This document shows, piece after piece, positions 4,912 through 60,003 of a stretch of 64,000 nucleotides of DNA (positions within the stretch are counted from its first letter, which is position 1; the number at the start of each line of letters is the position of its first letter). The notes beneath the pieces were generated by a model. That model had not been told where the DNA came from. It did no database searches and saw nothing but the letters and a program-made list of their open reading frames with translations. This stretch comes from Erythroxylum novogranatense (lineage: Eukaryota; Streptophyta; Magnoliopsida; Malpighiales; Erythroxylaceae). Position numbers and translations under genes: made by a program. The stretch spans positions 51,662,063 to 51,726,062 of the forward strand of contig CM057233.1 of assembly GCA_029891385.1 (NCBI GenBank), read 5' to 3'.

Positions 4912-5127
4912 AAGTCGACTTACCTGAACATGCAAGTCGACTTATGCATGTGTAGGTCGACTTGTGCATGTGTAAGTCGACTTATGCTACTGTGCACATG
5001 CAAGTCGACTTATCTCATTGTGCAAGTCGACTTACCTGACTACTGTTCACGAGCAAGTCGACTTGTGCATGTGTAAGTCGACTTATGTGAGCATGCAAGT
5101 CGACTTATGCATGTATAAGTCGACTTA
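4912..5127. repeat. AAGTCGACTT palindrome array (10 units)
   Basis: Ten copies of the perfect palindrome AAGTCGACTT (one is AGGTCGACTT) start at 4912, 4934, 4954, 4974, 5002, 5024, 5055, 5075, 5097 and 5118. Spacings are 22, 20, 20, 28, 22, 31, 20, 22 and 21 nt. The DNA between units is variable, often TGCATGTG-like. The array lies in the element leader between primer site and gag. Confidence 0.95.
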
Positions 5128-6238
5128 TATTTAAAAATTGCTCTCTAATTGGCTAATTTCTCAATCCGTGCAGTTCCAATTCACAATACCAAGTGTAATA
5201 TACTTTACTTTGATGTACCAATGAAACACTTTCATTGTATCATGCTTACCATGTATAAACATACTATACTTGAAAAACTTGAAATTGATGAATACACTAT
5301 TATTCACTTAGATTTCCAAATAATTTTGCGAATATCAAACTATCACCCTAAGTATCTCTAGGTTGTCTACACTTTATCAAGACTACTTCGACACTAGTCA
5401 CAAAATTGGTGACGGCCAAAACAATCAAGATAAGGAAATATACTAACGAGACACTAATGAGACACATTTGACATCCGAAAATTTTTGGAAACCCAATTTC
5501 AAGAAAATCAGTTTGGCAAGAATGCAACATCAATTTAACATATTTTTAATCACATTAAAAATGATCCAAGGCATTGGAATTGAGAAATACACAATCAATC
5601 ATTCCAAACAAAACAGCTCCAACAACTTTCTCAAAACTGCCATGCTCTATCTTTTGCTTGAAAAACTCATTGAAACAATTTCAATAAATTCTGAAAAAAT
5701 TACTGAGGTTACAAAATGTTCACAACATGCACCATGAATTGTTTCAGGATTTATTTCCAACAAAAACTTAACCAACCTCAGCAACAAAGCCAATGTAGAA
5801 TCTGTGTTCCTCAACACAGTTATTCCCAAAAGCACACGATAAATTCTCAAATATATAGTAAATCACCTCGAAAACATTTCTCCATCCTCATAGACATTCA
5901 TAAACATCTTAGAGACATGTCGGTGAAAGAAAATCCAAAAAAAAAATTCTATAATTTATTCTCAAATTTATAAGCATGCCTGTTCAAGGAATGTACACAA
6001 ACACAGCAACCAGAACATTAGGGAATAAATTAGGAAAACCATATCAAACCACATTGATAAATTCTGTTCTTTCACAGACATATTCAAAAACATCTTATGA
6101 GCACATCTGTGTAAGAAAATTTTGAAAAAAATATTTCTATACTGATTTCGAATTTAACACAGTCAACATGCATTATCGTCACAACCAATAGGCAGCTACA
6201 ACCTTGTTATGATTTCTTCGTTATATATAACACAAGTA

Positions 6239-6250
6239 GCTCTGATACCA
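6239..6250 (-). other. E1 primer binding site (initiator tRNA-Met)
   Basis: On the minus strand TGGTATCAGAGC follows the 5' LTR end (...CCTACA) after one base. It is the complement of the 3' end of plant initiator tRNA-Met, the usual copia primer. Confidence 0.95.
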
Positions 6251-6251
6251 C

Positions 6252-8095
6252 TGTAGGAAAATCCCGGTGTGTGCATCACATACACACGATGCGAAAAAAC
6301 AAAAATTTTTGTTCCTGGACCTTCCCGAAAGCTAGGATCCATGTCTCCATATAACAAAGTCAAACCATAACGACCAAAGGAGACCGTCGCTAACGGTATC
6401 CACGCAGAGGTCGGAGAACCTAACCGGGGTAAACCCTTTGACCCGGGAATAGCTAGAACAAGGAAAAGAGTGCTAGCTCTTACCTTATTCTTGGAAAGCT
6501 AAGGAATCAACGATGGAGGAGAAGCTTGGAGATGATGAAGAAGAGAGACCTTTGATGAAAGATGAAGAAGAGATGAAAGCTTAGGATTTTAAACCCCTTT
6601 CAAAACCCACGATCATCAACTCTTTCATTTCTCTACATAAGCCATTTGTCTTTAACTCTTTTAAAGACATTAAATGCTAAAGTGGAATTACTTTCCACGT
6701 TAGCCTTTATATATATATATAAAAAAAAAAGTTAAAAAGGATAAGGCTTATCATTTGGTCTTCTCTCTTCATTCCACGTTAATCTCATATATATATATAT
6801 ATATATTAATTACTTAATTAATTAATAAGATATATATATACATAAATGCTAAAGTGGTCCAGTCACACTAGGGTCGGTCCTACCGAGTCCTGGTATGGAC
6901 AAAACACCGAAGACCTGTTTCAGCAATATCGATGTCGTGATCTCATCGGGACATATCTTGATCTCATTGGGATCCATTTAATCCTATTGCTCTCCATTTA
7001 TTGGATCTCTATCCAAAACTATTTTAGGAATTCTCCGAATCACTCTTATGCGTGTGACCCATTAGGTTTCCGGTTATGTTGGCCACTTAGATTAACACTT
7101 AATCCAAGCAAGTCATGAGCGGTATCTAGCAACACATCATGACCCCCAATTGACTGGAAAGTACTTGGTTTGACGAATGCACCTATGTTCATGATGAACC
7201 ATATCACGAAACTTTCCATAGACAATTACTGTGCAATTCGTCCTTTCACCATGCTATACCTCACTTGGTTATGAGTATGGGCAAAGTGTCAACTCTTACT
7301 AGACCGAGCACGCCAAATCTAGTCCAAGTGATATCGCTTCTCGCCCTAGACTCATTACTTTATATGTCATCAAGACATTCTTCATGACATATGAACTCCG
7401 GCCAGAGATTTCCAAGTAATGACCCTGACAAGAGGCCATGGGTATCATTTTTTGCTATTACAGAAGTGATGAATCCTTTATTGGCTACTCAATTACCTTC
7501 GAATACCTCAAACTGTACCCAATCACCACCCTACGAGCGACCTCTGTAAGGCAACAAGGAATGAAGTCAAAGCACAGAATCAGTATCCAAGATATCCTTG
7601 AGCACCTCAAGTATAAGGATATTTGCACCATTGTTATGATGAGATTATCACTGACATTAGAATAGGACATCCATGTGATGATCTCATAGCAGGTCATCCA
7701 ATGTACTTACTACCTCTAGTAAGCATTCACATCTCAACCCTAAACATCTCATATTTACGGTTTATGAGATCCATTGCTGATCAAATCAAGGAGCTTGAGA
7801 TGTGCTAGTCTCCGGATTCTGATGTCCAGGTTTGATAATCCTACGACTAGGGATAATTTGAATCTTGACATAATTGCACATGATAGGAATCTCAGTAGTA
7901 AGATCACATCATAATTTCCTTCATGCTATGTCATATATCAGGGACTTCATTAATTTGCTTATTGATCAATATCAGTTCATAAATAATGAACATCAAATTA
8001 ATGAAATATGTCTTTCTTTATTTATTCAGCAAGTATGTACACAACTTTGTACAAAACGCGCTAAAGGCGATTGCCTTTAGGGCACTACTCTAACA
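6252..8095 (-). repeat. E1 5' LTR (complete, 1844 bp)
   Basis: On the element strand the LTR runs from TGTTAGAG to CCTACA and is flanked by the primer site. Its 3' portion, as read on the plus strand near the left edge, includes the donor-like AAG|GTAAG at 6483 and TA-rich runs at about 6706-6730 and 6788-6840, where a TATA-type promoter could lie. It contains only short chance frames. The same LTR family occurs at 38356-40186, 57600-59435 and 63142-64000. Confidence 0.95.
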
Positions 8096-9040
8096 GATAT
8101 CTCTAAGTTGTCCTCCAATTTTGACATATCTTACAGAAATTAAGTTGTGTTGTATTTTTTTCTTGAATGAAGTGATTGTCAATTTCAATATGTTTAGTTC
8201 TTTTGTCAAACATTGGACTAAAAGCAATATGTGGAAGAACTTGATTATCACACCAAAATATTGCTGGTATTGAGGCTTTAAAACCAAATTCATATAATAG
8301 TTCATATATTTATATTATCTCTCATGTTGCCTATGCCATAACTTTGTATTTAGATTCTTCATTGAATCTAGATACAACATTTTGTTTGTTACTTTTCCAT
8401 GAGATCAAGTTTCCACTAGTAAAGATAAAAATAGCTAGTCATAAATTTTTGATCAATCTTGGAACCTACCTAGTCAACATCTATGAAGAATTCAATGTCA
8501 GTGTGTCCATGATTTTCAGATAGTATCCCTTGTCTAAGAGCTCCCTTTAGGTAACATATGACTTGTTTGAGATAATTCAATTTTTTTGACCAATCTTTGA
8601 TATTTTTCAAGATCTTCAAGCAAATCTCCATCTTTGGTGAATTTTAAATTATGAGGCATTGAGGTACTGTATGGTTTAGCTCCCAACTTTCCAACCTCAG
8701 TTAATAGATCAAGTACAAATTTTCTTTAGGACAAGAAAAATCCCTTTATTGCTTCTTGTTACTTCTACTTCCAGAAAAAATTTCAGAGTTCCTAGATCCT
8801 TCTTTTGAAACTAACTGTGAAGAAAGGATGGCCATAGAGTCACTTCTGGTTATGATAATAGCATCCATATAACAACAAGGAGAAAAATCCCATATTTAGA
8901 TTTTTTTTAGGATTAAGTGATCATATTTGCTATTTTTCAATCCAAACATTTCTATAACTTGATTAAATTTTCCAAACTAGTTATGTGAGCTTTGTTTCAA
9001 ACCATATAAAGACTTACACAGTTGACTAACTTTGTCATAC
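8096..9040 (-). pseudogene. C0 (old copia): RNase H and part of RT
   Basis: This is decayed copia pol on the minus strand, with many stops and frameshifts. Recognisable motifs are YVKxxxQLxDI at the end of pol (8096-8130), TKHIEI-like (near 8195), the RNase H stretch around SWKSNKQN (8340-8410) and the RT motif LYGLKQSSHNWFGKF (8960-9020). E1 breaks it on the left and E3 on the right. It differs strongly from E1/E2 pol, so it is a separate and older copia family. Confidence 0.8.
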
Positions 9041-11893: not shown

Positions 11894-12091
11894 GTTCGTT
11901 AAATGGACATGGATGTCTGTTAAACGGACCATGTCCATTTAACGGACAGCCTTAGGTGCAAAAACACCCCTTAGCCTGCCCATGTCCATTAGACGGACTT
12001 ACATGTCCGTTTAACGGACATTCTCAAAGCATTTGGGCCACTTTCACCCAAACGTGTCCGTTAAACGGACATGGATGTCCTTTTAATGGAC
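11894..12091. repeat. GTCCGTTTAACGGAC palindrome array (7 units)
   Basis: Seven 15-nt near-palindromes of the form GTCCRTTWAACGGAC start at 11894, 11915, 11933, 11984, 12005, 12056 and 12077 (spacings 21, 18, 51, 21, 51, 21). Some half-sites are mutated. Flanks repeat CATG/ATGGAT. It lies in the downstream part of the E3 5' LTR. Confidence 0.92.
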
Positions 12092-12775: not shown

Positions 12776-12787
12776 TGGTATCAGAGC
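12776..12787 (+). other. E3 primer binding site (initiator tRNA-Met)
   Basis: TGGTATCAGAGC lies four bases after the LTR end CCAACA and fixes the 5' LTR boundary and the element's orientation. Confidence 0.92.
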
Positions 12788-15345: not shown

Positions 15346-16436
15346 TAGTGTGTAACATCCCGTCATCGATGGGATGGGTACAGTTCATTGCATACGTATT
15401 TGACATGCTCATGCATGATTTATTTATGTATAATTGAAAATGATTATATTGGCATTTGTACGTACATACATGTATGACATATTTCCGATTTGATTTGGAT
15501 AATTTGGATTTGGAGATGATTAAGGCATGTGTGATAATTAGGTCATAATAGGCTCAAAAATTGAATTTGAGTTAGAAATGAAAGTTAAGAAATTGAATTA
15601 TGAAATTGGAGTATACAATTATGATTTTTTATTTTTGAGGATTTATAGAAATTTTTCTGAAATTTTTGGAGCAATAGGCTCGGACCGAAAAATTGATCAA
15701 TGACTGGTTAATTGAATTTTCGGTTTTGAAATTGATTATCCAATGGCTCGGATAGATTAGAAATTTGATTCGAGGAATTAGGATTTAGCCATTAGAATTC
15801 GGGAGAAATTAGAATTAGAAACTGATTCGAGGTGGTTCGGATTCGGACTTGTGGCAAATGAAATTACCAAACAAGCATTAGCAATCCATTAATATATAAA
15901 ACTTAATCTTTGAAATTGCCTTCCACGACACCTCCTTAATCCTTTGAAAAGAAATTGCTCCTTGTTTTCTCTTCTCCATCGTGGATCTTCCTTGTGATTT
16001 CTCCTTGCTTTTGGTTTCCTCTTCCATCCTTGAATCTTTCCCTTTGGATTGTGTAAAGAAGAGTTGAAGATGGGTTTGAGTTTGGTGATTGTCGTGGGTG
16101 TCGTTGAGCTTTGATTTGGTGCGATCCTTGGAGATTTGAGGTTATTAATCAAGTAAGCTCTTTCTTTCTTACCTTATATAGTTTGATTGGTTGGTTTATA
16201 GAGTTATTTGGATGATTTAATTTGTATATTTGAGGATTTGACATTTAGGGTTTCCGATGGTTATTTTCGTTGATTTTAGGGTTGAAATTTTGGGAATAAT
16301 GGTTGTTTGATGAAATAGAAGTTAAGGATTAGTTGTATGATATGTATGGAATTATTTAGGAGTGGTTTGAAAGGAGAAAATCTGGATTTGGAGTTGCTAT
16401 CAGTCGAAAATCTGGAAATTTCTGGATTTTCTGGGC

Positions 16437-16680
16437 GTGTCTACGATTGCATGCCATGGCAAGACGAAGAACACACCGCTGGCGAAAGCAGATTGTTCCA
16501 GCACGCCGCGACGAAGAGAAGGCGCTTGCGACGACGAGCGCAGCGCGCTTGCGACGAGCTGGAGAGTGCGTCGCGACGTACACGATCGTCGCCACCGCGA
16601 AGGACGCGTGGTTCGCCGCGGCGAGGCTTGTGTACGCATGCAAGACGAAGAAAAAGGGAGCTTCGCCATGGCGGGAAGGC
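16437..16680. repeat. GC-rich palindrome island in B1
   Basis: A 240-bp GC-rich block lies in AT-rich LTR. Recognisable unit copies CGCCGCGACG, CTTGCGACGA, CTTGCGACGA, CGTCGCGACG and CGCCGCGGCG start near 16504, 16525, 16548, 16569 and 16614, mostly 21-23 nt apart. The open frames on both strands here are a by-product of high GC and few stops. They have no domain similarity I recognise. Confidence 0.8.
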
Positions 16681-16992
16681 TGATTCAAAGTGAAATTTTA
16701 GGTTTTAAGATTTGGGGAATTAGGAATTTGACAATTCAATTAGTTATGGATGGATTTCAATTTGGAGATTATGAATTCGAAAATTAGAATTTGAGATCGG
16801 GAAAATTCGGATTTGTGTCGAAAATGTCATACCATGTATAGTACGTACATTATTCGATTTATATGCATCATTGAACATTGAAATGGATACAATTAGTAAT
16901 GTTATTATGTTTTGATTGTTATAGAGGTGCCAGTAGACCGCCGATTGTCTGACGTAAGCGAGACTTCCCGGCAGTAGCTCGGAAGTTCTCAG

Positions 16993-21014: not shown

Positions 21015-21973
21015 AATATTGTAGCGCCCCTTACCGCAGGGTACACACCGGGACGCCCGTAGGTCATTCCGATACATATCCTACGATAAGGGTGAGCTAT
21101 GAATGGTCACTACTATACTTCACATGGCATCATAATAATAAAACATCAATATAAAAATCACTAATTTTTGAAACCAACTTTTTCCTCATTTCATTCATCA
21201 AAATTAAGAAGTTTATACATCTATCATTCTATACTATCTGTACATCACTCCAAAAACCTAGTACAAAATGTTATATAAAAAGGAAAATACATCACCCTAA
21301 CTAGATCATCCCAAAAATCCCAGCTGACCGACCTGTGACCCATGATTTCTCTTGCCAACACGATCTACACGGCAGGAAAAGTCCCTCTGGAGCTAGAAGT
21401 CTACTCTCGGTCCTGAAAAATATGTTGCAATTTTGGGTGAGTTTGCGAACTCAGTGAGGTAACCATCATCAATGGTTCACTCAATTCATACAACACTCAA
21501 GCATAACATAGTTATTTCATAAACCCACATTCAGAAGTACCACATGATTGTTAGCACACAAGTATAAGGCATTTTGCCTTTCACTCAATCAAAGAGATTA
21601 AATCAAATGTATATGAAATGCGTATGTGACACTTTTCCAATTTATTACAGTGTTGTGACCGAGCGCCCAAACTGTCCCAATATGGGCGCATTAATCGTTG
21701 AGCCTGAGGCTCTGAATCACTGTGGGCTCGATCAGTATCCACAAAAAATATGCAAAGCTTGGCCATTCAAAATAAAGCGTTAAAAGCCTATATTCGACCT
21801 CCTCCTAAAAATCTGAATCCTTCGAGGCAAATTCTGAACTTCCCTTCTTCATACAACTTGTAATCCTTGATCTCTAGTTCACAATGAATCCAAAATCACC
21901 TCAATTGGACATCTACACCAAAAGATATGCCCAAAAATATATCAAAATCATATTTCAGAAAACAAGGGGGGCT

Positions 21974-22144
21974 CGCCGCGGCGAAGGGACGCTCGCCGCG
22001 ACGTCGGCCTGGCTCGCCACGGCGAAGGCCAGGCTTGCCGCGGCGAGCACAAATGTGTGCGTCGCGACGTGCTCCCCTCATGCACGTCGTGAAGTGCACA
22101 TTTGTGCGCCGCGGTGTGCACATCACCATGTGCATGCCGCGACG
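21974..22144. repeat. CGCCGCGGCG / CGTCGCGACG palindrome array (8 units)
   Basis: Units start at 21974, 21994, 22015, 22036, 22060, 22085, 22108 and 22135 (spacing 20, 21, 21, 24, 25, 23, 27). Cores switch between CCGCGG and TCGCGA types. Linkers include GCACAAATGTGTG-like text. It is in the E6-type part of E4. Confidence 0.9.
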
Positions 22145-22499
22145 TGCACTATGTGCATGAGGCATCCCATTCACTCACTTGCCAAGGCGTGCTCTTGCAA
22201 GACGTCATGACGTCTTGGTCGAATCATGCGACTCAACCCCAGATTTCTGCAATTTCCAACTTCAATCTCTTCCCAAATCCAAATGCAACACAACCAAACG
22301 ATAGATCAAGTCTCAAACTACATTTCTAACCCATTAACAACTTAAAACCATGCACAAAACTAGTAACCCAACGAAATCTCACCATTTATGCCTTAAATCC
22401 CTAAAACCGTCGATTCTAACACAATCAAGCCATCTTAGGTTTTAATCTAGCCACAATACAAAGGGATGAAGATAAACTTACCCGGAAATAGCTTCAAAC

Positions 22500-27706: not shown

Positions 27707-27927
27707 AATCAAACATATCAGAATAATGGTAGTTTGTACCCATTATCAATAATCAAACGTATCAGAATAATCGTAGTCTGAACCCATTAACAATAATCAA
27801 ACATATCAGAATAATCGTAGTCTGAACCCATTATCAATAATCAAACATATCAGAATAATCGTAGTCTATACCAATTATCAATTATCAAACATATCAGAAT
27901 AACTGCAGTCTGTACCCATTATCAATT
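27707..27927 (-). repeat. 44-bp tandem repeat, 5 copies
   Basis: Units begin AATCAAACATATCAGAATAA at 27707, 27751, 27795, 27839 and 27883. The period is exactly 44 bp and differences are few. It is absent from the other LTRs of this group. Confidence 0.92.
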
Positions 27928-27956
27928 TATATCAGTGTGGTGACCAAGCATCTATA

Positions 27957-29105: not shown

Positions 29106-29253
29106 CGCCGCGGCGAAGAGAAGGTCGTCGCGGCGTGCTCCCTCATTCACGTCGCGACGTGTGGTCCTGCACTCGTCGCGACGTGCGGCCCTGCGTTCGT
29201 CGAGACGTGCACAAATTCGTGCGCCGTGACGTGCACATGAGCACTTCGCGACG
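29106..29253. repeat. CGTCGCGACG palindrome array in D (7 units)
   Basis: Units start at 29106, 29126, 29150, 29174, 29198, 29222 and 29244. The spacing is 24 in four consecutive steps. Most are CGTCGCGACG or one change away; the first is CGCCGCGGCG. Confidence 0.92.
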
Positions 29254-38030: not shown

Positions 38031-38098
38031 AATCTCACTATCATTCCTATCTCTATACCTGAAACTATCATGAGCATAAGAATACTCGTTTGAGGTTG

Positions 38099-40186: not shown

Positions 40187-40187
40187 G

Positions 40188-41325: not shown

Positions 41326-41497
41326 AAGTCGACTTATATGTTCATAAGTCGACTTGTTTGGTGCATCAGATTAATAAGTCGACTTGCATAATGGTACAAG
41401 TCGACTTGTTCATGCATTAAGGCACAAGTCGACTTACACATGCATAAGTCGACTTATATAGAGCCATAAGTCGACTTATACATATACAAGTCGACTT
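41326..41497. repeat. AAGTCGACTT palindrome array in E2 (8 units)
   Basis: Eight exact AAGTCGACTT copies start at 41326, 41346, 41376, 41398, 41426, 41446, 41468 and 41488 (spacing 20, 30, 22, 28, 20, 22, 20). Unit number and linkers differ from E1, but the core word is unchanged. Confidence 0.95.
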
Positions 41498-42085: not shown

Positions 42086-42275
42086 GGTCATTCTTAGCAA
42101 TGTCGGATATCGACCCACTAGGTCAATGTGCCATTTTGTTTCATGGATTCATGATGAGGGTTATGGATTCTATTGAAACTAGTGGGAGCCATACGTATGT
42201 CATTTAAGTCCTTATGAGCATACATTTAATTCTATTCTAACTTTCTCTCTCTCTCTATGTTTAGGTTGGTTGAAG

Positions 42276-45577: not shown

Positions 45578-45982
45578 TGTAACACCCCACTCCCAGAAGA
45601 CCAACCCGATATCGTTGGTGATATCCGAGTCTCAGGTCCCACGAGAGTGGCGTCTTACATCACCGATTTAAAATTCAGTATACATTTTTTTTCTTTTATA
45701 GCCATTAACTTCACGCTCACACGGCAAACACAAGAAGTAAATAAAATCCGTATTCAAGATAAACCTGCTTCAGCTTATTACGGTCCATCCAAAGAATAAT
45801 TACAATCACCAATGCAAAACATTAATACCACAATGGCTCAAGAAAATATAAAGCCTTGTTATACAAAGGATTGCGGAATACAATTTACTAAAACACTAAT
45901 ACGTATACCTAACCGATCCCGACCTCTAACCTTTACTCGCTCTACGGAGACATACTCCGTGTCAACCGGGTATTCTTCAGAC

Positions 45983-46658
45983 CTGAAAATAGATGCAAAT
46001 TTTGGGTGAATTTTGCGAACTCAAAGAGAAACCATCATCGATGGTTCACTTAAATCATGCATTACGCCCATGGCGTGCAATCTGACAAGAATCATCAATT
46101 ACCAAGAATAGTCAATAACGATATCCAAGAATATAGAAACATTCACAGAATTCATCCCATCACGAAAGTAGAACTTATCACATAACATTATTTATGCGAA
46201 TGCAATGCATATGTGACTCTTTCCAGCTTATTCAAGATTGCCCCAAGTGCTCGGCCAAGATTCGGGGGGGCGCGTGTGATTTCTCCCTCGGGCTCGTGGG
46301 TCTGTCCAAGACAAAGATGAGAGCTCAAGCTCTTATCGATAATAATAGCAACTTGGGGCACGCCCATTATCCGATCATGCAATTATGCATGCGGGCAAGA
46401 TTTAGTAAATATGCGATTTTGGCTATAAAGCCCAAAGTATCGCTGAATCAATGATATGGCTATAAAGCCCAAAGGTATCGATCGATGTTGAAGATGATGG
46501 CTATAAAGCCCACCTATCAAGACGGTAAAATCATATAATACAATCCCATACATTACATGCCAAGATTCATACAAAGGATCATTCAATTCACTTTTGCACG
46601 TAATTCACGTTAAGCATGTAAACAACCAGAAATTTGAGAAACCAACTAGGTTACTCAC
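45983..46658 (-). other. Predicted LTR intron in F 3' LTR
   Basis: The donor ATAG|GTGAGTAACCTAG and acceptor TCTATTTTCAG|GTCTG enclose 676 bp. The other F LTR has the same at 53456-54133 (678 bp), and B1 has 674 bp. Confidence 0.5.
46421..46510 (-). repeat. Three GGCTATAAAGCC hairpins in F
   Basis: GGCT-ATAA-AGCC occurs at 46421, 46458 and 46499, and again in the other LTR at about 53897, 53934 and 53973. They occupy the place of the GAGC/GCTC hairpins of B1 inside the predicted intron. Confidence 0.8.
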
Positions 46659-47130
46659 CTATTACTCCGAGCTAATGCCGAAAGTCTCGTGACGCTCGGT
46701 CAATCGACGCCCAATTGGGCCTCTATATGAATCGAAAAAATGCGAGTCACTAAATATAAAATTTGTGCTCATGATGATGAGATATGCATGTTCATGAATT
46801 CCGGTCCCAATTCAATATTTTCCCATAATAAAATTCTATGAAAAATTAGAAATCCATAGGCGCCGACGGCATGCAATTCGACCTCTATAGGTCCTCAATT
46901 AAATAAAGCAGTGTTTACATGATCCGTCAATAGGGGCTACGCCAAATTCCGCCTAAAATTCCCGCTTTCATAATATGAAATTAAATATTCAACGAATCCG
47001 ATGCCTCTGGAATCAGGTCAATCGGACGTCGGACGGGAAAGAAATTGACAAAAGAACAATCGGATCAATTTATGCCAAATAATAAGCAAAACAATAATAT
47101 ATATATATATATATATATTCGAATCTCACT

Positions 47131-47245
47131 CATGGGCGAGATGCCGCCCTCGCGAGGCTGATTTACCCTTTAAATGAGGGCGAGGCGTCGCCTCGCGATC
47201 GCCCGATAATCTCGCCGCGAGGCGAGATGTCGCCTCATGAGCCGC
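47131..47245. repeat. CG palindrome island in F 3' LTR
   Basis: It holds self-complementary words such as CCCTCGCGAGG, GGCGAGGCGTCGCCTCGCG and CTCGCCGCGAGGCGAG, with linker GAGATGxCGCC. It follows a TA dinucleotide run at 47099-47118. The sister copy is at 54600-54728. The word differs from the CGTCGCGACG of D and E6. Confidence 0.85.
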
Positions 47246-49544
47246 GAGTTTCCCTCATCCGCTTTGCCCTTTTTTCCAAATTTCAATCCCAATTTCTAAC
47301 TACTCTAATTCTTAGCACACAAATCAGAAAAATACCCACTATACCTCATTGGAAAGCTTATGAAAAGCTCTACAATTCTCAAGAAGACCAAAAAATTCAA
47401 ATCCAACCTTAAGAGTCTCAAATAATCCATCAAACCTTCTGCCTAATCAATTTCCCTCAACACTGGGCAGTACATTGACAATTGCATAATTCACTGATTC
47501 CTTAGTAATAAATTACCAAACAAATATGGTCAATAAGTTCACAATGTCCTCTACAACTTTCATGAACAATCCAAAATCAAATTCTATTTCTAAACCAGTC
47601 AATTAATTCATTCAATGTCACTGTCCCTGAAATCCTTCACTTTGTGCAGTAATTTTACAAGAAGCATAACTTCCAGTATATAAGTCAATAAAATCAGAAC
47701 TTTATATCCTTGTAAAGATAACATCATAAACTTCATTTTTGATGAAGCACTCAACCTCCAATTCAATCTCTAACAATTTCAAAACTGTTATGGAAGTTTC
47801 TGTTATCATCAGCCATTCATAACCTAATGTAGGATCAGTTTTGAAAATCATATCTCCCAATTCTGACTTCTAAAATTACATACCAAATATAAATTTCAAG
47901 ATAATCTCTTCCTCTACAACTTTTCAGAAGCTCACTCACACCAATTCAGTCCACATAAAATGTTAAAATTGCCTCAAATCAGTAAACTCACAAAATCACA
48001 CTTAAACTAGGTTTCATCCAAAATGCTCAAAACCAGCCATTAGTAATCAATTCATATCTCCCAATACACAATTCTAAAATAACAAGATCAGTAGCAATGG
48101 AAAGATAATCAAATATGCTACAACTTCCATGAAGACCATTCTCCTAATTCCATCTCAATTAATTCATAAAATCAGTAAACTCAGATGTCATGGTTGCAGT
48201 TACTGTTCACAGACAATGGAACAGTAACTTTCCATGCAAAATTTCACCCTTCTATCATTGGAATTCAACAACACCTATTTCACACTAAATTAAAGCCAAC
48301 ATCCCAAAGTTTCAGTGGCCACTAACCTTACCTCATTTACATTTCTCCACAATGAGTTATGCTCAAATCAGTATACTAAGTCAAAATCAATTTTCAGCTT
48401 TACTTCACCAATTCACTTCCTATCATACCAATTCAATTCCTACTACCATAGGCATCTCATTTTAACACAAAATCAGTACTTACAATATTCATACATTCAC
48501 TAGGGCTAATAGTCACATTTTGGCAGCATTAATTTCTCAATTCCTATGCACAATTCATCATCAAAAATGCAATTATAATCAAGCTAAAACCATTCATCAC
48601 TCATCCTACTTTCAATTCATAACTAACCCTAATCTTATACCCATTAATTCAAGCAATAATTATCATCAATTTAATGCATCAAGAATCATAATAAATGCAC
48701 CAAATCCCCCATTCAATGTTTCTACCTACCATGATTCATAAATTCAAACTTAAGCATCATTGAAAACTTAATTAACCTTCCTTACCTAATTAGCTTTTCC
48801 ACTTCAAGGCACACCAATTCTACTTTCTTCTAACATCAAACATGTATATCATCATCATGAGAAGAACATAACTTGATGGCATGAAGAAGTTCTTATGTTT
48901 GGAGGAAGGTTTGATGAAAGAAGAAGAAAATCAATGGTGGTGGCAAAGAGATGAGTTTTCTTCGGTGGAAGCAAAAATCCAAGCCATTCAAGCTTGTTTT
49001 AATTCTTTTCTAAGTGATAACCGTGGGTGAGATGATAAGGGTGCCTTAAATGCAACTTTTTGGTGGCCAAATCTAATTGGTATTTTAAAAGAAAAGTCAA
49101 ACTAATCATATTTTAATCCAGATCAAAAATTTAACCCAATCGACTCCAATGACTCTAATTTCAATTCCAAAATAATATACCCAATATTACAGTGCCATTG
49201 GGTAGAAATTTTCGCCATCAAAAAAATAATCGATTCGCTAATTGGCGATTTTTCCGATCCGAAATTTTCTCCGAAAAATTCCAGAAAAATTCCTAAAATC
49301 CTAAAATGTAAAACGCTCAATGGCGCTTTAGAATAATTTTTCAAATCCCATAACCACGTTAATCACAATAAATGCCGTTAGGCCCAATTTCCGGGAATGT
49401 CATGAATGCATTTACCGTAATTCCATATACACAATTGATACTGTGTATCGATCCTATTATGCATGAACAGTAATGATTATTCCTTATCAATCCCATCCTA
49501 TGCCAAATTTACTATTTTTCCTTCCGGGAGGGGTGGATGTTACA

Positions 49545-49556
49545 ATTCTCCTCCTT
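49545..49556 (-). other. F polypurine tract
   Basis: AAGGAGGAGAAT on the minus strand directly precedes the LTR start TGTAACATCC. Upstream lies TTCGAGGACGAAATTCTTAT, the pol-terminus remnant also seen in E3. Confidence 0.85.
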
Positions 49557-52500
49557 ATAAGAATTTCGTCCTCGAAATTTCCAAATAACTGCTCACTATG
49601 ACAATAATCATATGAGTCTATATATCCCATATACTTTTCCACTTAATGATCCACTTTTGGAGTGATCGCAGAATCACTCTCATCTGCATCGCCATTATGG
49701 CTAACTCATTATCACTTAAGACAAGAAACTGATTCGACAAGACTATCGCTTGACGATCTCATTTTTCTTAGCTATCTCACTTACCATTTCTAGAATTGTC
49801 ACTACCTTTGGTTTCGATATTTAACTCGATTCAAGATTTTCTAACCTATTCACTTATCACATTTTATTCCTCTAATACCTTTTTCCCCAATGTTATATAG
49901 TCCAACTTATGTTCCAATGAGTACGTCTCCATTTCTTTGATATCTCTTTAATCACGCCGGGGGCGATTTATATTCCTTTGGTACCAATACGGTGACATTT
50001 AACTCCACTTCACTATAATCAAGAATAACGATCTAATGCGGTCACTTATCATATGCCATTCACTTTATGTTCAAATTGATTCTCGTAAGACACTTCATCG
50101 TTCTATAGTGTTCACACACTTCATCCGGATATACAGCTTTACTCGCCTCATTTGTCCAATCCAAATTCCACTTTAGCTAACCATGCGAGCTTCCTAAGTC
50201 ACTTTCCTTTTTCTCACACATTTTAGTTTCAAATCCATTATGGTCTTTAACTCTCAAGAGGCACTATGCGAAGGTAACAAGATATATTTTCCAAAGGAAT
50301 CAAAACTCTATTACAAGAACATAATCAAACCTTTTCTTATTAGACATTCAATCTATAAACTCTCGAGCCAAGAATCACTTCATTCTATACCTACAATTAC
50401 TCAATTTCACTTTTCACATATGCTTATTAGAATGTCTAACTTCAACTGCTCACTTTCTTGTTCTAGTACCCTTTTATCTGCTCCACATACTTAGACTTTT
50501 GTTCACTATAGTTTTCCAATTCCATTAGTATATTCAAACTCATCATAAAAAAATTCCCTTTACTTTCTACACTCTTAACCTTTCTTATCACTATTCTTAC
50601 AACTTCTTTTTTTCTTTTTTTTTTTTTTTTAAACACCTCACTATTACCCATAATCGCTTGACAATCATTGAAAATCCCAATATCTGTAATTAACTGCTCA
50701 TTGCAAGATTATCGTATTTATACCGCCTCTTCCCTCAAATTAACACAAGGTATGATTATAGGAATCTACAGCCTCCAAGGCTTTCAATAATGAGAATGGC
50801 ACTAATACCATTTATCACAAATACCAATTTATTTCATACTTGTTCAACATATTGTCGCAGTTCAATACTCACTACCCACTCTTCCCATGTATGTATATCA
50901 TCAGTATCAGATTCCTCAATTAATCCTATCGTTCTTTTTACTTTTCACTGTTCCACGATTCCAAACACATTCTATCTCTAATCACCACTACTACCATTTA
51001 CTTACTTCGCATAAATCCCTATTAGGGTCTTATTGACTTTACCATACATCTTTTACCCTTTTTATTGAGTCTACAATGAGTGTATCTACAATTTCTTTAT
51101 GAAGGTGTCACTACATCACCTCATTGTCAGTTTCCTTTTTTTTGACCCTCTTGTCTCTATTCAATTACTCTTTTTCATTTTCTCTTCTCAACAGTTTTCA
51201 TATCATTTATATCAACATATGTTGATACCTTGTCATCCATATTTAAACCTCCAAAAATTTTCCATTTTTTTATTTTAGTCTCTCACAATTCTCAGTTCGG
51301 GACTCTTTTAGTCTTCGTTTCAAATCTAGATTCCTCAACAGTTTTACATCATAACTGGAGATCGATTCACTTTACATTGCAATTGAATCTCCTCAAATTA
51401 AAATCTCACTCATATGTAATTCTTTACATTTCTGTACATACAATGCGATAATCTCAAAGATGAGCTATGACCCAATTTCACTTTTAATTTTGTCCACAAA
51501 AGTCTCATCAACCAATGATTATTCCTAATTGTGTTTCAATCCTTCTTCACTATACGCATAATCTCAATCAAGACACTCTTATGTCTTCATTTAACAGATC
51601 GTAACATTCCTTTCACAAGGTTCCTTGTGATACCACTTAAACGCTTTCTTTACCACTTATTTAGTAATCTATACCGTAATCACTTTTCGCCTTCCTCTCA
51701 TACAGGTACACTCACCAATTTGTCTTACTTTAACCTCTTAAGAACTTCACACTTTAATCACTCTAAACATTTACCGCCATTTCCTCTATAATTTCCATAT
51801 ATCCGCCACATACATTTCATTAGTCACAATCAACATTATCGTCCAATAGATATCCCTAACAAGAATTCACTTTAAATGCAATAGCTTTTCATATACCACT
51901 ATGGTGGTTTCATTCTTTTCAAGATCTTTATTTCATTCTCACCATATCATTAAACCGTATGTCTCATTCCCTATCCGTTATGCGTAACTTGACCTTGTAA
52001 GGTCATAACAATTTGGCTTCTCATCTTATGATCTTTATTCCTTTTTTTTTCTTTTCGCTACTTATCTTCTATTTTCCTCAAATAGTTTATGATCGGTGTT
52101 CACAAATCCCCAATACCCGACAAAATCGTTGATACCACTCCATTTTATCTCTATCTATATACGTATCCATTTACCATTTTCGTGTCCATATACACCTAAT
52201 TCAAGATTTCCGATATACCATCAAGAGAAATTATCTCGTCTGCTTTTTCCTTTATGATTTTATCATACGAATTTCCAACCTCGAAGCACAATAGTCACAT
52301 AATCATTTCAGTTTCAAGCATATGCGGTCCAAATCCTAATCATTTCACGAATTCTTCAGTTTATCAATACACTTTTATCTCACTCTAATAGGCACTGGGC
52401 ATCTTATTATTTTTTTCGATTCTTTCAGTTCTCGATAATCCGTTACAGTACTCTATTGGGCTTCTTTCCATCTCACTATCATCATCTAGCTTATAATATC

Positions 52501-53036
52501 TACTGATCTCTAACTCAAATACAGTGAATCAAAATATGCCCGATTGGACCATCAATATTTTACTCAATTTCAATATTTCCCCTTTCATGACATATACAGT
52601 CAGAACTGTAATTACCTAACCATCCCGAGCTTTTAATCTCACTTAGATCTACTATAACCAATAAGCTTCCCATATCTCTAATGGACTTCTCCCGCCTCAA
52701 CATCTGCATTTTTCATCACCATAATATTATCAATTTAATTCGAAATTTTAATCGCCTAGCCAACACACTATTCGGCTATCACTTATAAGGGTTTCTAACC
52801 CAAGACAATTTTCAATCTTCTTATCCATTTTCCTTTATCCTTTCCTAATTGATTATCCCTTCGATTTACACTCTAATCCAAAGATCACTCTTCTCTCACT
52901 TAATCACTGACACTTATGCACCCGTAGGATTTATCCTCGAGCGACTCGACTAGGATCGCTTACCACGGTCTGCAATGACACAACTCAAATGCATGAAACC
53001 TATGTTCCAAATCGCGCCTGATACATTACGCATCAT
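49557..53036 (-). other. F interior: non-coding
   Basis: About 3.5 kb, pyrimidine-rich on the plus strand, with stops in all frames. I recognise no gag, protease, RT or integrase motif. A T run is at 50607-50629. The size and lack of coding content fit a LARD-like element that depends on a coding relative. Confidence 0.75.
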
Positions 53037-53051
53037 CTGGGCTCGATACCA
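53037..53051 (-). other. F primer binding site (probable initiator tRNA-Met)
   Basis: TGGTATCGAGCCCAG on the minus strand resembles TGGTATCAGAGCCCAG with one base missing. It lies about seven bases from the LTR end. Confidence 0.72.
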
Positions 53052-53455
53052 CCTAAATAACAACACCATCTCCGTAAGACCCAACCCGATATCGCTGGTG
53101 ATATCCGAGTCCGTGTCCCACGAGAGGCGCATTACATCACGATTTAAAATTCAGTATACATTTTTTTTCTTTATAGCCATTAACTTCACGCTCACACGGC
53201 AAATACAAGAAGTAAATAAAACCAGATTCAAGATAAACCTGCTTCAGCTTATTACAACCATCCAAAGAATAATTACAATCACCAATGCAAGAAACATTAA
53301 TACCACAATGGCTCAAGAAAATATAAAGCCTTGTTATACAAAGTGATTGCGAATACAATTTACTAAAACACTAATATGCATACCGAACCGATCCCACCTC
53401 TAACCTTTACTCGCCTACAGAGACATACTCCCGTGTCAACCGGTATTCTTCAGAC

Positions 53456-54133
53456 CTGAAAAATAGATGCAAATTTTGGGTGAGTTTTATGAACTCAAAG
53501 GAGAAACCATCATCGATGGTTCACTCAAATCACGCATTACGCCCATGGCATGACAAGACAAGACAAGAATCATCAATTACCAAGAATAGTCAATAACGAT
53601 ATCCAAGAATAATAAAACATTCACAAGAATTCATCCCATCACGAAAGTAGAACTTATCACATAACAAGCATTTATGCGAATGCAATGCATATGTGACTCT
53701 TTCCATTATTCAAGACAGCCCAAGTGCTCAACAAGATTCGGTGGGGACGATCGTGATTTCTCCCTCGGGCTCGTGGGTCTGTCCAAGACAAGATGAGAGC
53801 TCAAGCTCTTATCGATAATAATAGCAACTGGGGCACGCCCATTATCCGATCATGCAATTATGCATGCGGTGCAAGATTTAGTAAATATGCGATTTGGCTA
53901 TAAAGCCCAAAGGTATCGCTGAATCAATGATATGGCTATAAAGCCCAAAGTATCACCGTTGTTCAAGATGATGGCTATAAAGCCCAGTCTATCAGTATCA
54001 GTAAAATCATATAATACAATCCCATACATTACATGCCAGTATTCATACAGTGATCATTCAATTCACTTTTGCACGTAATTCACGTTAAGCATGTAAACAA
54101 CCAGAAATTTGAGAAACCAACTAGGTTACTCAC
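53456..54133 (-). other. Predicted LTR intron in F 5' LTR
   Basis: It has the same donor (GTGAGTAACCTAG) and acceptor (TCTATTTTTCAG|GTCTG) as the other F LTR, 678 bp apart. It contains the three GGCTATAAAGCC hairpins. This is the LTR that would drive transcription. Confidence 0.5.
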
Positions 54134-54599
54134 CTATTACTTCCGAGCTAATGCCGGAAAGTCTCTATGACGTCGGTCAATCGACGCTCCAATTGGGCCT
54201 CTATATGAATCAGAAAAGTACGAGTCACTAAATATGAAATTTGTGCTCATGATGATGAGATATGCATGTTCATGAATTCCAGGTCCCAATTCAATATTTT
54301 CCCATAATAAAATTCTATGAAAAATTAGAAATCCATAGGCGCTGACGGTGCGCAATTCGGACCTCTATAGGTCCTCAATTAAATAAAACAGTGTTTACAT
54401 GATCCGTCAATAGGGGCTACGCCAAATTCCGCCTAAAATTCCCGTTTTTCATAATATGAAATTAAATATTCAACGAATCCGATGCCTCTGGAATCAGGTC
54501 AATCGGACGTCGGACGGGAAAGAAATTGACAAAAGAACAATCGGATCAATTTATGCCAAATAATAAGCAAAACAATAATATATATATATATATTCGGAA

Positions 54600-54728
54600 G
54601 CCTGCCTCGCGGGGGCGAGATGCCGCCCTCGCGAGGCTGATTTACCCTGCTTGTCATGAGGGCGAGGCGTCGCCTCGCGATCGCTCACATCTCGCCTCGA
54701 GGCGAGATGTCGCCTCATGAGCCGCGAA
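54600..54728. repeat. CG palindrome island in F 5' LTR
   Basis: Sister of 47131-47245, with several indels between the two. It contains CCTCGCGGGGGCGAG, CCCTCGCGAGG, GGCGAGGCGTCGCCTCGCG and TCGCCTCGAGGCGAG. A TA run precedes it at 54577-54592. Confidence 0.85.
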
Positions 54729-57034
54729 GTTTCCCTCTTTTGCCCTTTTTTTCCAAATTTCAATCCCAATTTCCAACTACTCTAATTCTTAGCACACAAA
54801 TCAGAAAAATACCCACTATACCTCATTGGAAAGCTTATGAAAAGCTCTACAATTCTCAAGAAGACCAAAAAATTCAAATCCAACCTTAAGAGTCTCAAAT
54901 AATCCATCAAACCTTCTGCCTAATCAATTTCCTCAACACTGGGCAGTACATTGACAATTGCATAATTCACTGATTCCTTAGTAATAAATTACCACAAAAA
55001 TATGGTCAATAAGTTCACAATGTCCTCTACAACTTTCATGAACAATCCAAAATCAAATTCTATTTCTAAACCAGTCAATTAATTCATTCAATGTCACTGT
55101 CCCTGAAATCCTTCACTTTGTGCAGTAATCTTACAAGAAGCATAACTTCCAGTATATAAGTCAATAAAATCAGAACGTTATATCCTTGTAAAGATAACAT
55201 CATAAACTTCATTTTTCATGAAGCACTCAACCTCCAATTCAATCTCTAACAATTTCAGAACTGTTATGGAATTTTCTGTTATCATCAGCCATTCATAACC
55301 TAATGTAGGATCAGTTTTTGAAAAATCATATCTCCCAATTCTGACTTCTAAAAATTACATACCAAATATCAATTTCAAGATAATCTCTTCCTCTACAACT
55401 TTTCAGAAGCTCACTCACACCAATTCAGTCCACATAAAATGTTAAAATTGCCTCAAATCAGTAAACTCACAAAATCACACTTAAACTAGGTTTCATCCAA
55501 AATGCTCAAAACCAGCCATTAGTAATCAATTCATATCTCCCAATACACAATTCTAAAAATAACAAGATCAGTAGCAATGGAAAGATAATCAAATATGCTA
55601 CAACTTCCATGAAGACCATTCTCCCTAATTCCATCTCAATTAATTCATAAAAATCAGTAAAACTCAGATGTCATGGTTGCAGTTACTGTTCACAGACAAT
55701 GGAACAGTAACTTTCCATGCAAAATTTCACCCTTCTGTCATTGGAATTCAACAACACCTATTTCACACTAAATTAAAGCCAACATCCCAAAGTTTCAGTG
55801 GCCACTAACCTTACCTCATTTACATTTCTCCACAATGAGTTATGCTCAAATCAGTATACTAAGTCAAAAATCAATTTTCAGCTTTACTTCACCAATTCAC
55901 TTCCTATCATACCAATTCAATTCCTACTACCATAGGCATCTCATTTTAACACAAAATCAGTACTTACAATATTCATACATTCACTAGGGCTAATAGTCAC
56001 ATTTTGGCAGCATTAATTTCTCAATTCCTATGCACAATTCATCATCAAAAATGCAATTATAATCAAGCTAAAACCATTCATCACTCATCCTACTTTCAAT
56101 TCATAACTAACCCTAATCTTATACCCATTAATTCAAGCAATAATTATCATCAATTTAATGCATCAAGAATCATAATAAATGCACCAAATCCCCCATTCAA
56201 TGTTTCTACCTACCATGATTCATAAATTCAAACTTAAGCATCATTGAAAACTTAATTAACCTTCCTTACCTAATTAGCTTTTCCACTTCAAGGCACACCA
56301 ATTCTACTTTCTTCTAACATCAAACATGTATATCATCATCATGAGAAGAACATAACTTGATGGCATGAAGAAGTTCTTATGTTTGGAGGAAGGTTTGATG
56401 AAAGAAGAAGAAAATCAATGGTGGTGGCAAAGAGATGAGTTTTCTTCGGTGGAAGCAAAATCCAAGCCATTCAAGCTTGTTTTAATTCTTTTCTAAGTGA
56501 TAACCGTGGGTGAGATGATAAGGGTGCCTTAAATGCAACTTTTTGGTGGCCAAATCTAATTGGTATTTTAAAAGAAAAGTCAAATTAATCATATTTTAAT
56601 CCAGATCAAAAATTTAACCCAATCGACTCCAATGACTCTAATTTCAATTCCAAAATAATATACCCAATATTATAGTGCCATTGGGTAGAAATTTTAAGCA
56701 TCTAAAAATCGAATCGATTCGCTAATTGGCGATTTTTCCGTCCGAAATTTTCTCCGAAAATTCCAGAAAAATTCCTATAAATCCTAAAAAATGTAAAACG
56801 CTCAATGGCGCACTCAGAATAATTTTTCAAATCCCATAACCACGTTAATCACAATAAAATGCCGTTAGGCCCAATTTCCGGGAATGTCATGAATGCATTT
56901 ACCGTAATTCCATATACACAATTGATACTGTGTATCGATCCTATTATGCATGAACAGTAATGATTATTCCTTATCAATCCCATCCTATGCCAATTTTACT
57001 ATTTTACCCTTCCAGGAGGGGGTGGGATGTTACA

Positions 57035-57585: not shown

Positions 57586-57588
57586 GTC

Positions 57589-57599
57589 AAGTGGGAGAT
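57589..57599 (+). other. E2 polypurine tract
   Basis: AAGTGGGAGAT immediately before the TGTTGAGTAG start of the 3' LTR. It is the same as in E1. Confidence 0.88.
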
Positions 57600-59435
57600 T
57601 GTTGAGTAGTGCCCTATAGGCAATCCCTTTAGCGCATTTTGTTCATAGTCATGTATGCACTTTATGAATAAATAAAGCAAGGCATATTTCATTTATTTGA
57701 TATTCATTTTATTATGAATTGATAATGATCTTTAATCAAATTAATGAAGTCCTCGATACATGACATAGCATGAAGGAAATTATGATGCGATCATACTACC
57801 GAGATTCCTATCATGTGCAATTATGTCAAGATTCAAATTCTCCTAGTCATAGGATTAACGAGACCGACATCGTTAATCCGGATAGACTAGCACATGTCAA
57901 ACTTCTTGATCGATCAAGCAAAGGATCTCGTAAAACTGTAAATATTGAGATATTTAGCTTTGACACGTGGATGCTTACTAGTGGTAGTAAGTACATTGAT
58001 GACCTGCTATGAGATCATCACATGGATGTCCTATACAAATGTCGCTGATAATCTCATCATAGCAATGGTGCAAGTATCCTTAGACTCGAGGTACTCAAGG
58101 ATATCTTGGTACCGATTCGTATTTTGACTCCATTCCTTGTTGCCTTTCGAGGTCGCCATAGGGTGGTGATTGGGTGCACTTGAGGTATTCAAGGTAATTG
58201 AGTAGCCAATAGAGGATTCACCACTTCATTATAGCGTAAGAGATACCCATGGCCTCTTATCGGGATCATTACTTTGAAGTCTCTGGCCGAAAGATACATA
58301 TGTCATGAAGATGGTCTTCATGGACATATAAAGTAATGCGTCCCCAGACGAGAACCGATTACACTTGGACTAGATTTGATCCGATCAGCCTAGTAAGAGT
58401 TGACACATTGCCCATACTCAAACCAAGTGGGGTATAGCATGGTGAAAGGACTAATTGCACAGAATTGTCTATGGAAGGGTTCGTGATATGGTTTCATTAG
58501 TCAAACCAATTACTTTCCGGTCAATTGGGGTCATGATGTGTTGCTAGATACCGCTCATGACTTGCTCAGATTAAGTGTTAATCTAAGTGGTCAACATAAC
58601 CGGAACCTAATGGGTCACACGATAAGAGTGACTCGAGAATCAGAAATAGTTTCTACGTAGATCCGATATCCGGAGAGCAATAGGATTAAATGGATCCCGA
58701 TGAGATTGGGATATGTCCCGATGAGATTGCGACATCGACATTCTTTGAAAACCGCTTCCGGTGATTTTCACCTACGGGGCTGCAGCAGTAGGAGGACCAA
58801 TTCCAGCTTGATCGACCACTTCAGCAATTATATATATATATTAATTAAGTAAATAATTAATTAAGTATATATAAAAAGATGTTGATTTTCGGTGGAGCCA
58901 TTAAATGGAGAAGTGAAGTTGGTTTGAAAAGTCAAACCTAATCATCATTTAGCATTTTAAGGCATTTTATGCCTCCTACGTGGATGAGCATCCACCAAGC
59001 CCTTTTATATGTGTCTTAAGTGTTAAATATACATAGAAGAAGGATTGGAAAAAAGCTTGGTCGTGGGTTTTAGAAGGAAGAACCGAAAGCTTAAAAGTTA
59101 AGCTTTGAAAATCTTGTTTTCATCTTCTTCCTCTCATCATCTCAAATTGCTTCTACTTCTCCAAGGCTCCACCAAGATCATTTCATTTGCTCTCCAAGGC
59201 TAAGGTAAGAGCTAGCACTCTTTTCTTTAGTCTAGCTATTCCCGGGTCAAAAGAGTTTGTCCCGGTTAGGTTTTCCGACCTCTGCGTGGATACTGTTAGA
59301 GACGGTCTCCTTTGGTCGTTATGGTTTGATTGTTTGTACTTACACATGGATCCTGGCTTTCGGGAATGTCCCGGGACTCAAAATTTTAAATTCCGCACTG
59401 TGGGCATGTGATGCCTACCCCGGGATTTTCCTACA
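57600..59435 (+). repeat. E2 3' LTR (1836 bp)
   Basis: It starts TGTTGAGTAG (the 5' copy has TGTTAGAGTAG) and ends CCTACA, followed by TSD GAGTC. The last 450 bp are nearly identical to the 5' LTR. At 57820-58810 there are many small differences, often CGATC-type. Confidence 0.95.
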
Positions 59436-59782
59436 GAGTCGTGGGAGAGGGAGAAGAGAAGAGAAGAGGGATTTCGATCTTTGAGGATTTCTGACAGATT
59501 CGAAGTATTTGTGGGTAAGTTTCGCTTTGTTTAAACTTGTTTTGGTTAGATTAAACTTAGAGGATGTGGAATGTAGTAGAATCGGTGGTTTTAGGGTTTT
59601 AGGGTAAAAATGGTTAGATTTCGTGGGTTGATGTGTTTATGACTGATTTTGAGTTGTTGCTGGGTTAGAAATGTAGTATAAGACATGATCTAAGGCTTAG
59701 GTGTGTTGCATTTGAGTTTGGGAAATGATTGAAGTTGGAAAATGCTGGAAATCGGGTTTCGGAGTCGAGCTCCAGACCCGCA

Positions 59783-60003
59783 CGTCGCGACGTGCATTTG
59801 AACACGCCGCAACGTGGAGTTCGTCGCGACGTATAATAATTAAATTCGTCGCGACAAGCGGGGAAACGTTCGTCGCGACGTGCGAGAGAAGCGTTCATCG
59901 CGACGTGCGAGAGGGGTGACGTCGCGACGTGCGAATGGGGCGAGATCGCAACATGCGAAGAAGGCTCGTCACGACGTGCGAAGAGATTTGGCTCGCCGCG
60001 GCG
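59783..60003. repeat. CGTCGCGACG palindrome array in E6 LTR (10 units)
   Basis: Units start at 59783, 59805, 59822, 59847, 59871, 59896, 59920, 59944, 59967 and 59994 (spacing 22, 17, 25, 24, 25, 24, 24, 23, 27). Four are exact CGTCGCGACG; others differ by one to three bases, often by C-to-T or G-to-A changes. The last is CGCCGCGGCG. Confidence 0.93.

Follow-up and report, generated by a model that had tools for sequence, protein, structure and literature searches.

The DNA analyzed here (the window) is a stretch of 64,000 nucleotides from Erythroxylum novogranatense (assembly GCA_029891385.1, contig CM057233.1, positions 51,662,063 to 51,726,062). It consists of nested long terminal repeat (LTR) retrotransposon DNA, in which seven arrays of short palindromic words lie within elements of the copia and gypsy types (Table 1). 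Three words account for the seven arrays: AAGTCGACTT occurs in the leaders of the copia elements E1 and E4, about 1.1-1.3 kb beyond the 5' LTR, while CGTCGCGACG/CGCCGCGGCG in C, I, D and F and GTCCGTTTAACGGAC in E2 are found inside LTRs. The spacings between successive units are 22, 20, 20, 28, 22, 31, 20, 22 and 20 in E1 and 20, 30, 22, 28, 20, 22 and 20 in E4; the E2 array is built from 7 GTCCGTT-type half-sites, 18-21 apart within groups that are themselves about 51 apart; and the CGTCGCGACG arrays take the form of degenerate tandem repeats with a unit of 24-25 bp. CpG islands, of which 11 were called in the window, cover the four CGTCGCGACG arrays, and the E1, E4 and E2 arrays lie outside all 11. 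An earlier, sequence-only reading of this DNA had counted arrays in at least seven elements at a spacing of 20-25 nt. Seven arrays are present, although their correspondence to the labels of that reading is uncertain and its member B1 shows no excess over shuffles; the spacing holds roughly, with extremes of 17 and 31 and gaps of up to 68.

E1 and E4, on the minus and plus strands, respectively, are members of a single copia family, with aligned blocks that are ~79-88% identical and frames that match the Pfam entries RVT_2, gag_pre-integrs, zf-CCHC and Retrotran_gag_2. The target duplication of E4 is GAGTC, and TGGTATCAGAG lies immediately inside its LTR. The remaining LTRs are of two sorts, distinguished by their first bases. 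F is a gypsy element by its gag and protease frames, and E2, C, I and D are called gypsy-type from the likeness of their LTRs to F or to one another rather than from protein evidence. From the length and ends of the LTRs, F and its relatives are putative members of the Tekay/chromovirus gypsy lineage. Family labels and TATA sites are assigned throughout from features of the sequence.

Table 1. Positions of the arrays and of the elements that surround them (unit counts for F, D, I and C include units within 3 mismatches of CGTCGCGACG)
Feature	Positions	Strand	Description
E1 copia leader array	4912..5126	-	10 AAGTCGACTT units, 9 exact; between 5' LTR and gag region
E4 copia leader array	41326..41497	+	8 AAGTCGACTT units, 8/8 exact
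E2 LTR array	11894..12091	+	7 units of GTCCGTTTAACGGAC type; LTR start 9041, TGGTATCAGAGC at 12776
C LTR array	16504..16670	+	degenerate CGTCGCGACG/CGCCGCGGCG, 7 units, 1 exact CGTCGCGACG; CpG island 16361-16740
I array, F-like LTR piece nested in E3 LTR	21974..22212	-	CGCCGCGGCG/CGTCGCGACG, 9 units, 1 exact CGTCGCGACG; CpG island 21861-22300
D array, solo LTR (about 26921-30158, target-site duplication TGTTT)	29106..29253	-	7 units, 2 exact CGTCGCGACG; CpG island 29041-29360
F gypsy LTR array	59783..60003	+	CGTCGCGACG, 9 units, 4 exact, last unit CGCCGCGGCG; CpG island 59681-60080
Conserved module 3' of F array	60020..60160	+	also next to the arrays of I and D and, in inverted form, next to that of E2
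E1 5' LTR	8114..6251	-	copia
E4 5' LTR	38356-40187	+	copia; gag frame 42183-42854
F gag	61650-62612		Ty3_capsid/Retrotrans_gag
F protease	62702-63235		RVP_2
LTRs beginning TGTA[AG]CATCC	C 15351; E3 25917; D about 30158; B1 57034	E3, D and B1 -
LTRs beginning TGTTRG	E2 9041; I about 22896; F	I -	F interrupted by E4 insertion

Comparison of the Arrays with Shuffled Sequence

Even-length palindromes of at least 8 nt were counted in each array and in 2000 dinucleotide shuffles of the same stretch. The observed and shuffled values are 10 versus 1.29 in E1 and 8 versus 1.00 in E4 (reached in 0/2000 shuffles in both cases), 7 versus 1.99 in I (14/2000), 6 versus 2.38 in F (88/2000), 5 versus 1.92 in C (150/2000) and 3 versus 1.51 in D (399/2000); E2 has 0, since its palindromes are of odd length. 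When inverted repeats with arms of at least 5 and a loop of at most 4 were compared with 1000 shuffles, the observed values were reached in 0/1000 for E1, E4 and I, 10/1000 for F, 18/1000 for E2, 41/1000 for C and 188/1000 for D. Support from shuffling is strong for E1, E4 and I, moderate for F and E2, and weak for C and D, so that the equal palindrome density in shuffled sequence that the earlier reading had named as its refutation was not found for the three strong arrays, and C and D stand out little. In the GC-rich arrays many palindromes arise from composition alone, and there the repeated word is the better evidence. The biggest clusters with the same core contain 9 copies of GTCGAC and 5 of TCGCGA, and 100 block shuffles give at most 3. 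No excess of 8-nt palindromes is seen in six further tandem arrays from the window that served as controls. Phasing of the units along the DNA helix is suggested in E2 (P 0.018) and in the homologous arrays of E1 (P 0.010) and E4 (P 0.012), but it is not seen in F, D or I (P 0.95, 0.73 and 0.16) and was rejected as a general rule.

Conservation of the Core

Between the leaders of E1 and E4, 79/80 positions of the core are identical, as compared with 48/90 in the spacers and 1553/1914 outside the array, and CpG is kept at 8/8 sites in cores, 14/52 elsewhere and 0/1 in spacers. Summed over seven copia copies that were each compared with E4, the cores agree at 534/541 positions, and the flanks are 77-97% and the spacers 50-88% identical (Table 2). 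A count that requires no alignment found 61/68 copia units exact, with one mismatch in 5 and two mismatches in 2; units that differ further had been dropped. The pattern of the copia 10-mer looks like selection on the word rather than tandem homogenization.

Table 2. Identities of copia copies to E4 by region, gapped positions excluded
Comparison	Core	Flank	Spacer
E1 vs E4	79/80	661/808	48/90
L008 vs E4	80/80	655/810	62/92
L009 vs E4	74/75	674/812	55/81
L012 vs E4	65/66	792/821	54/62
L015 vs E4	77/80	666/810	66/88
L016 vs E4	80/80	619/804	46/92
L019 vs E4	79/80	797/825	81/92

These figures bear on the explanation that the arrays are neutral minisatellites, that is, functionless units amplified by slippage and recombination and occasionally copied as arrays between elements. 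Slippage would homogenize spacers together with cores, but the spacers fall below the flanks in 7/7 copia comparisons, and CpG loss is low in the cores, though in the E1-E4 comparison only. The control arrays without palindrome excess point the same way, whereas the tandem structure of the CGTCGCGACG arrays, and the fact that two of the element types described below (L007 and G1) have spacers as well as cores in common, are what a neutral process might produce. Moreover, the arrays were originally selected as palindromic, so that the palindromic nature of the words is not independent evidence. We regard a neutral origin as quite improbable.

One Word in Several Element Types

The assembly (1,300,216,121 bases in 267 contigs) was searched for close pairs, defined as two words with 5-35 bases between them and counted as pairs rather than as arrays. 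There are 64,744 such pairs of AAGTCGACTT and 0 of the reversed word, which is also a palindrome and has the same composition; for CGTCGCGACG the corresponding numbers are 8,448 and 0. Fifteen stretches (149 kb) were then sampled round listed places of AAGTCGACTT, all in the first 2.84 Mb of contig C1, and they contain 18 arrays of at least 4 exact units with gaps of at most 120 bp. The carriers represent five element types: the non-Sirevirus copia family of E1/E4 (6 arrays), a gypsy family designated G1 (6 arrays in three LTR pairs), an E2-type LTR (2 arrays in the LTR pair L013/L014), an F-type gypsy LTR (1 array, L016) and the Sirevirus-like element L007 (3 arrays, in two LTRs and one internal position). 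Some sampled copies have fewer units, e.g., L012 with 5 exact AAGTCGACTT. The G1 stretches show matches to gypsy frames (gag, protease or integrase), and all six have LTR sequence of G1 in common; L013/L014 are classed as E2-type by a 78% match over about 425 bp on the 3' side of the array. The expectation of the sequence-only reading that each family has a word of its own fails, since AAGTCGACTT is arrayed in five element types and both words are interleaved in L016.

A degenerate 14-mer, AYAAGTCGACTTRY, recurs in the five types, with opposite orientation in two. Among 97 distinct exact units from these types, position -2 is A in 82/97, position -1 is a pyrimidine in 96/97, +1 is a purine in 95/97 and +2 is a pyrimidine in 95/97. 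When L007, G1, the E2-type LTR and the leader and LTR of E4 were compared piece by piece (1e-3; L016 was left out), matches between types were confined to the arrays, apart from a match of 49 bp, 3' of the array, that links G1 with the E2-type LTR. Relative to their elements the arrays of L007 and G1 run in opposite directions; they are 75% identical across ~200 bp, and they still match when the cores are masked (75 and 87 versus shuffle maxima of 46 and 45). L007 also has 6 units of a variant, AAGTCGACTA.

Different words can also occupy one LTR site. In L016, where both flanks can be aligned to F, four AAGTCGACTT units are interleaved among CGTCGCGACG-type units, and in L013/L014 units of AAGTCGACTT/AAGTCGAGTT stand in place of the GTCCGTTTAACGGAC of E2, with only the 3' flank clearly homologous. 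The one-sided variant AAGTCGAGTT is represented by 8 distinct units in the E2-type arrays and 3 in G1 arrays (L013 4457-4650, L014, L005). Twenty CGTCGCGACG loci were picked from listed places in the first 7.4 Mb of C1, and 19/20 match a window or G1 LTR query (L040 matches none, and L039 also matches a copia LTR nearby). None of the twenty (0/20) contains AAGTCGACTT or AAGTCGAGTT, and mixed arrays such as that of L016 are therefore not common. In five random 10-kb stretches neither word is clustered and only triplets of CAATTG and GACGTC were seen, 50 kb being too small for estimating a fraction of families. Further clusters of short words were noticed in the sampled stretches, namely GACGTC together with units that resemble CAGACGATACATC, and repeats rich in GGCGAGGCG (L021 8865-9035; L012 9300-9600).

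Protein Site or RNA Pairing

The bases at -1/+1 of the 97 AAGTCGACTT units form the pairs TA 25, TG 34, CA 27, CG 8, AG 1 and TT 2 (within copia, TA 19, TG 18, CA 8, CG 8 and AG 1). Complementary bases are not preferred in these flanks, the pooled table leaning in the opposite direction (p 0.0013) from differences between types, and this is more in keeping with a site for a dimeric protein than with hairpins. The same observation speaks against a role in RNA dimerization or packaging, in which self-complementary words would let genomic RNAs pair through kissing or extended duplexes. G-U wobble would excuse the TG pairs but not the CA pairs. Such a role might be read from the location of the copia arrays between primer-binding site and gag, from the extreme predicted sense folds of E1, E4, E2 and I, and from the symmetric covariation in CGTCGCGACG considered below. 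The L007 array, however, is upstream of its TATA box (TATAAATAG), the folds of F and C are weak, and a word present in copia as well as gypsy types cannot mark a family, which disfavors the kissing-loop tags for family-specific packaging that the earlier reading had proposed. We consider RNA dimerization unlikely as the primary explanation.

The predicted sense-RNA folds have z scores of -9.95 in E1, -12.36 in E4, -12.91 in E2, -6.50 in I, -3.06 in D, -2.31 in F and -0.75 in C, against a background mean of -1.01 (standard deviation 2.01) over 290 windows; the antisense scores, in the same order, are -12.32, -15.70, -11.04, -9.31, -3.59, -4.44 and -2.70. Antisense folds are thus at least as strong as sense folds in 6/7 arrays, as is expected of a palindrome at the DNA level. 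Folding was rejected as proof of an RNA function, since folding is expected of any array of palindromes, the folds of C and F are weak, the antisense strand folds equally well, and an array-free 220-nt window at 40921-41140 reaches a z of -10.5. That window belongs to a part of the E4 leader just 5' of the array (40880-41330) for which a very stable hairpin is predicted.

The strong predicted folds, and reports of palindromes in maize Sireviruses as small-RNA hotspots (PMC10760457 and PMC5311732), might alternatively mean that the palindromes serve as a silencing template, their hairpin RNAs feeding 21-24-nt small RNAs by which the host recognizes the elements. Such a template leaves unexplained why the elements conserve the core and why one exact word occurs across types, and the stems between neighboring units would have only about 10-14 bp; we regard it as an unlikely primary cause. 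It can equally be a consequence of binding-site arrays. The feeding of small-RNA silencing suggested in the sequence-only reading survives in this secondary sense, with very strong folds in 4/7 arrays and the maize precedent (PMC10760457): strong RNA folding is a likely consequence of the arrays, and small-RNA production a possible one.

Interpretation of the Arrays

The explanation that we favor, with somewhat better than even confidence, is that the arrays are homotypic site clusters to which one or more dimeric host DNA-binding factors bind, and that copia and gypsy elements have retained and traded them. One dimeric host factor would recognize AYAAGTCGACTTRY and probably another CGTCGCGACG/CGCCGCGGCG; for the double CCGTT/AACGG of E2 we assume that the factor is perhaps of the MYB type. 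Host proteins bound to the words would tune transcription of the elements from arrays in LTRs or leaders, as proposed for the RM boxes of Sireviruses, and the words might have spread through convergent gain as well as through recombination or template switching. Among the roles listed in the sequence-only reading, dimeric binding sites fit best, given the recurrence of AYAAGTCGACTTRY in five types, in both orientations and upstream of a TATA box or in a leader, the helical phasing attached to that proposal being suggested in E1, E4 and E2 only.

Several observations weigh against this explanation. Positions 3 and 8 of CGTCGCGACG covary symmetrically (TA 95, TG 24, CA 21 and CG 23, one AG unit omitted; combined p 0.00015, for units that are related by descent), as RNA or DNA hairpins would also cause them to do. 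The arrays of most gypsy LTRs do not precede a TATA box: D, C and E2 have a TATA-like site 5' of the array, and in F and I no TATA site of the form searched was found 5' of the array. Aligners prefer to pair repeated words, which inflates the identity of cores and lowers that of spacers, and in the two youngest comparisons CpG is kept no better in cores (6/7 and 7/8) than in flanks (19/20 and 15/18). Finally, in a set of 90 spacer comparisons, five of the cross-type pairs other than L007-G1 beat the maximum of 200 shuffles by 1-7 points and the rest of these pairs do not. As the spacers match well between L007 and G1 and barely elsewhere, one exchange is well supported and the other cases may represent exchange or convergence.

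Binding-site arrays of this kind might belong to a larger scheme, in which a small vocabulary of palindromic "passwords" is kept and traded by both superfamilies as orientation-free cassettes, in thousands of arrays, with one host factor controlling a set of elements across families. This is a tentative idea, to which we give somewhat less than an even chance; if it is true, a change of word at one fixed position in an LTR would be the trace of a switch from one host factor to another.

Palindromic arrays in cis had been described as a hallmark of Sireviruses, and here one word spans a Sirevirus-like element, another copia and gypsy elements, with its core conserved above its surroundings. The activation of plant retrotransposons can thereby be put to a concrete test, namely a search for a AYAAGTCGACTTRY-binding protein and for a joint response of the carriers. 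If binding-site clusters are the correct explanation, regulatory cassettes would be moving between superfamilies, and these elements would provide a setting in which to test how palindromes persist despite possibly attracting small RNAs.

Other Features of the Window

The module 3' of the F array (CATATCTTT...ATGTCCAATTGAGGTGATTTT) gives scores of 178 for F-I, 95 for F-D, 97 for I-D, 59 for I and the reverse complement of E2 and 49 for F and the reverse complement of E2, versus shuffle maxima of 56, 61, 51, 47 and 45, respectively. It does not match C, and D against the reverse complement of E2 is not above shuffles. The F/I/D module lies at most 130 bp from the array in 15/20 of the sampled CGTCGCGACG loci.

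B1 (45578-57034), which is inserted in E4, has two ~3.95-kb LTRs that are 95% identical and a ~3.5-kb interior with few long frames. It was considered as an eighth array (46420-46512 and 53891-53986) and rejected: each LTR has three copies of TGGCTATAAAGCCCA, and its inverted repeats (139/1000 and 433/1000) show no excess. One B1 LTR holds a perfect 24-bp palindrome, ACATCTCGCCTCGAGGCGAGATGT, at 54687-54710. The D solo LTR contains 44-bp and 148-bp tandem arrays at 27699-28368. In 7/7 LTRs examined by eye (D, C, E3, B1, F, I and E2; e.g., at about 59531 in F), a purine-rich stretch is followed by GTAAG, which resembles a splice donor and lies 5' of the array wherever the LTR has one.

Relation to Known Systems

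The dimer-initiation palindromes of retroviruses are self-complementary words in the leader before gag. The E1/E4 word is similar in being self-complementary and in occupying the leader, past the primer-binding site and before gag; it differs in its eight to ten copies, in being shared and in having LTR positions too. Searches of an open-licence library, which lacks most subscription papers, yielded no report of one palindromic word common to copia and gypsy elements, nor of word swaps, and a literature search by the word strings returned, among the matches listed, unrelated titles only. Dyad activators such as box I of Tnt1 and the activator in the 5'UTR of the copia element, as mentioned in PMC2829016, resemble the present words as symmetric sites, one of them in a 5'UTR, but are not known to be shared between superfamilies. 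The maize Sirevirus palindromes cited above likewise form clusters with strong predicted structure, which here are not limited to Sireviruses.

The closest parallel is with the RM boxes of Sireviruses (Bousios 2010, PMC2829016), so that a named feature does exist, contrary to what the sequence-only reading had supposed. That paper presents RM boxes as palindromic and Sirevirus-specific, occurring in 13 Sireviruses and absent from classic copia elements, with positions both ahead of the TATA box in LTRs and ahead of env, and mostly having a CGG-CCG core, to which Tnd-1 is an exception; nuclear factors are suggested. By the hallmarks given there, L007 appears to be Sirevirus-like. It has four AGGGGGAG octamers (6599, 6645, 6723 and 6826), the last 10 bp before the 3' LTR (from 6836) and followed by AT/TG, as well as the 5' junction CA/ATTGG/TATCAGAGC and a C-run near the LTR end; it has no match to nine query proteins at 1e-5. 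E1 and E4 were rejected as Sireviruses on two hallmarks: the polypurine-tract octamer AGGGGGAG occurs 0 times in the 600 bp before the E4 3' LTR, where AGTGGGAG is present once, as the same AGTGGGAG is in E1, and both elements have the 5' junction CA/GTGG followed by TATCAGAG.

Like RM boxes, the words described here are short, CpG-rich palindromes with many copies per element, and the word varies between elements. The dyad of at least 8 copies per element is present in E1 (10) and E4 (8), in the leader, and the CGTCGCGACG arrays coincide with CpG islands. The RM-box position, within the LTR and 5' of the TATA box, is seen in L007, while the E1/E4 array is in the internal leader and that of G1 is 3' of TATA-like stretches. 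No CGG-CCG core occurs in AAGTCGACTT, that of L007 included. Unlike RM boxes, as these are portrayed in PMC2829016, the present arrays also occupy a non-Sirevirus copia leader and gypsy-type LTRs, and one word extends across the types.

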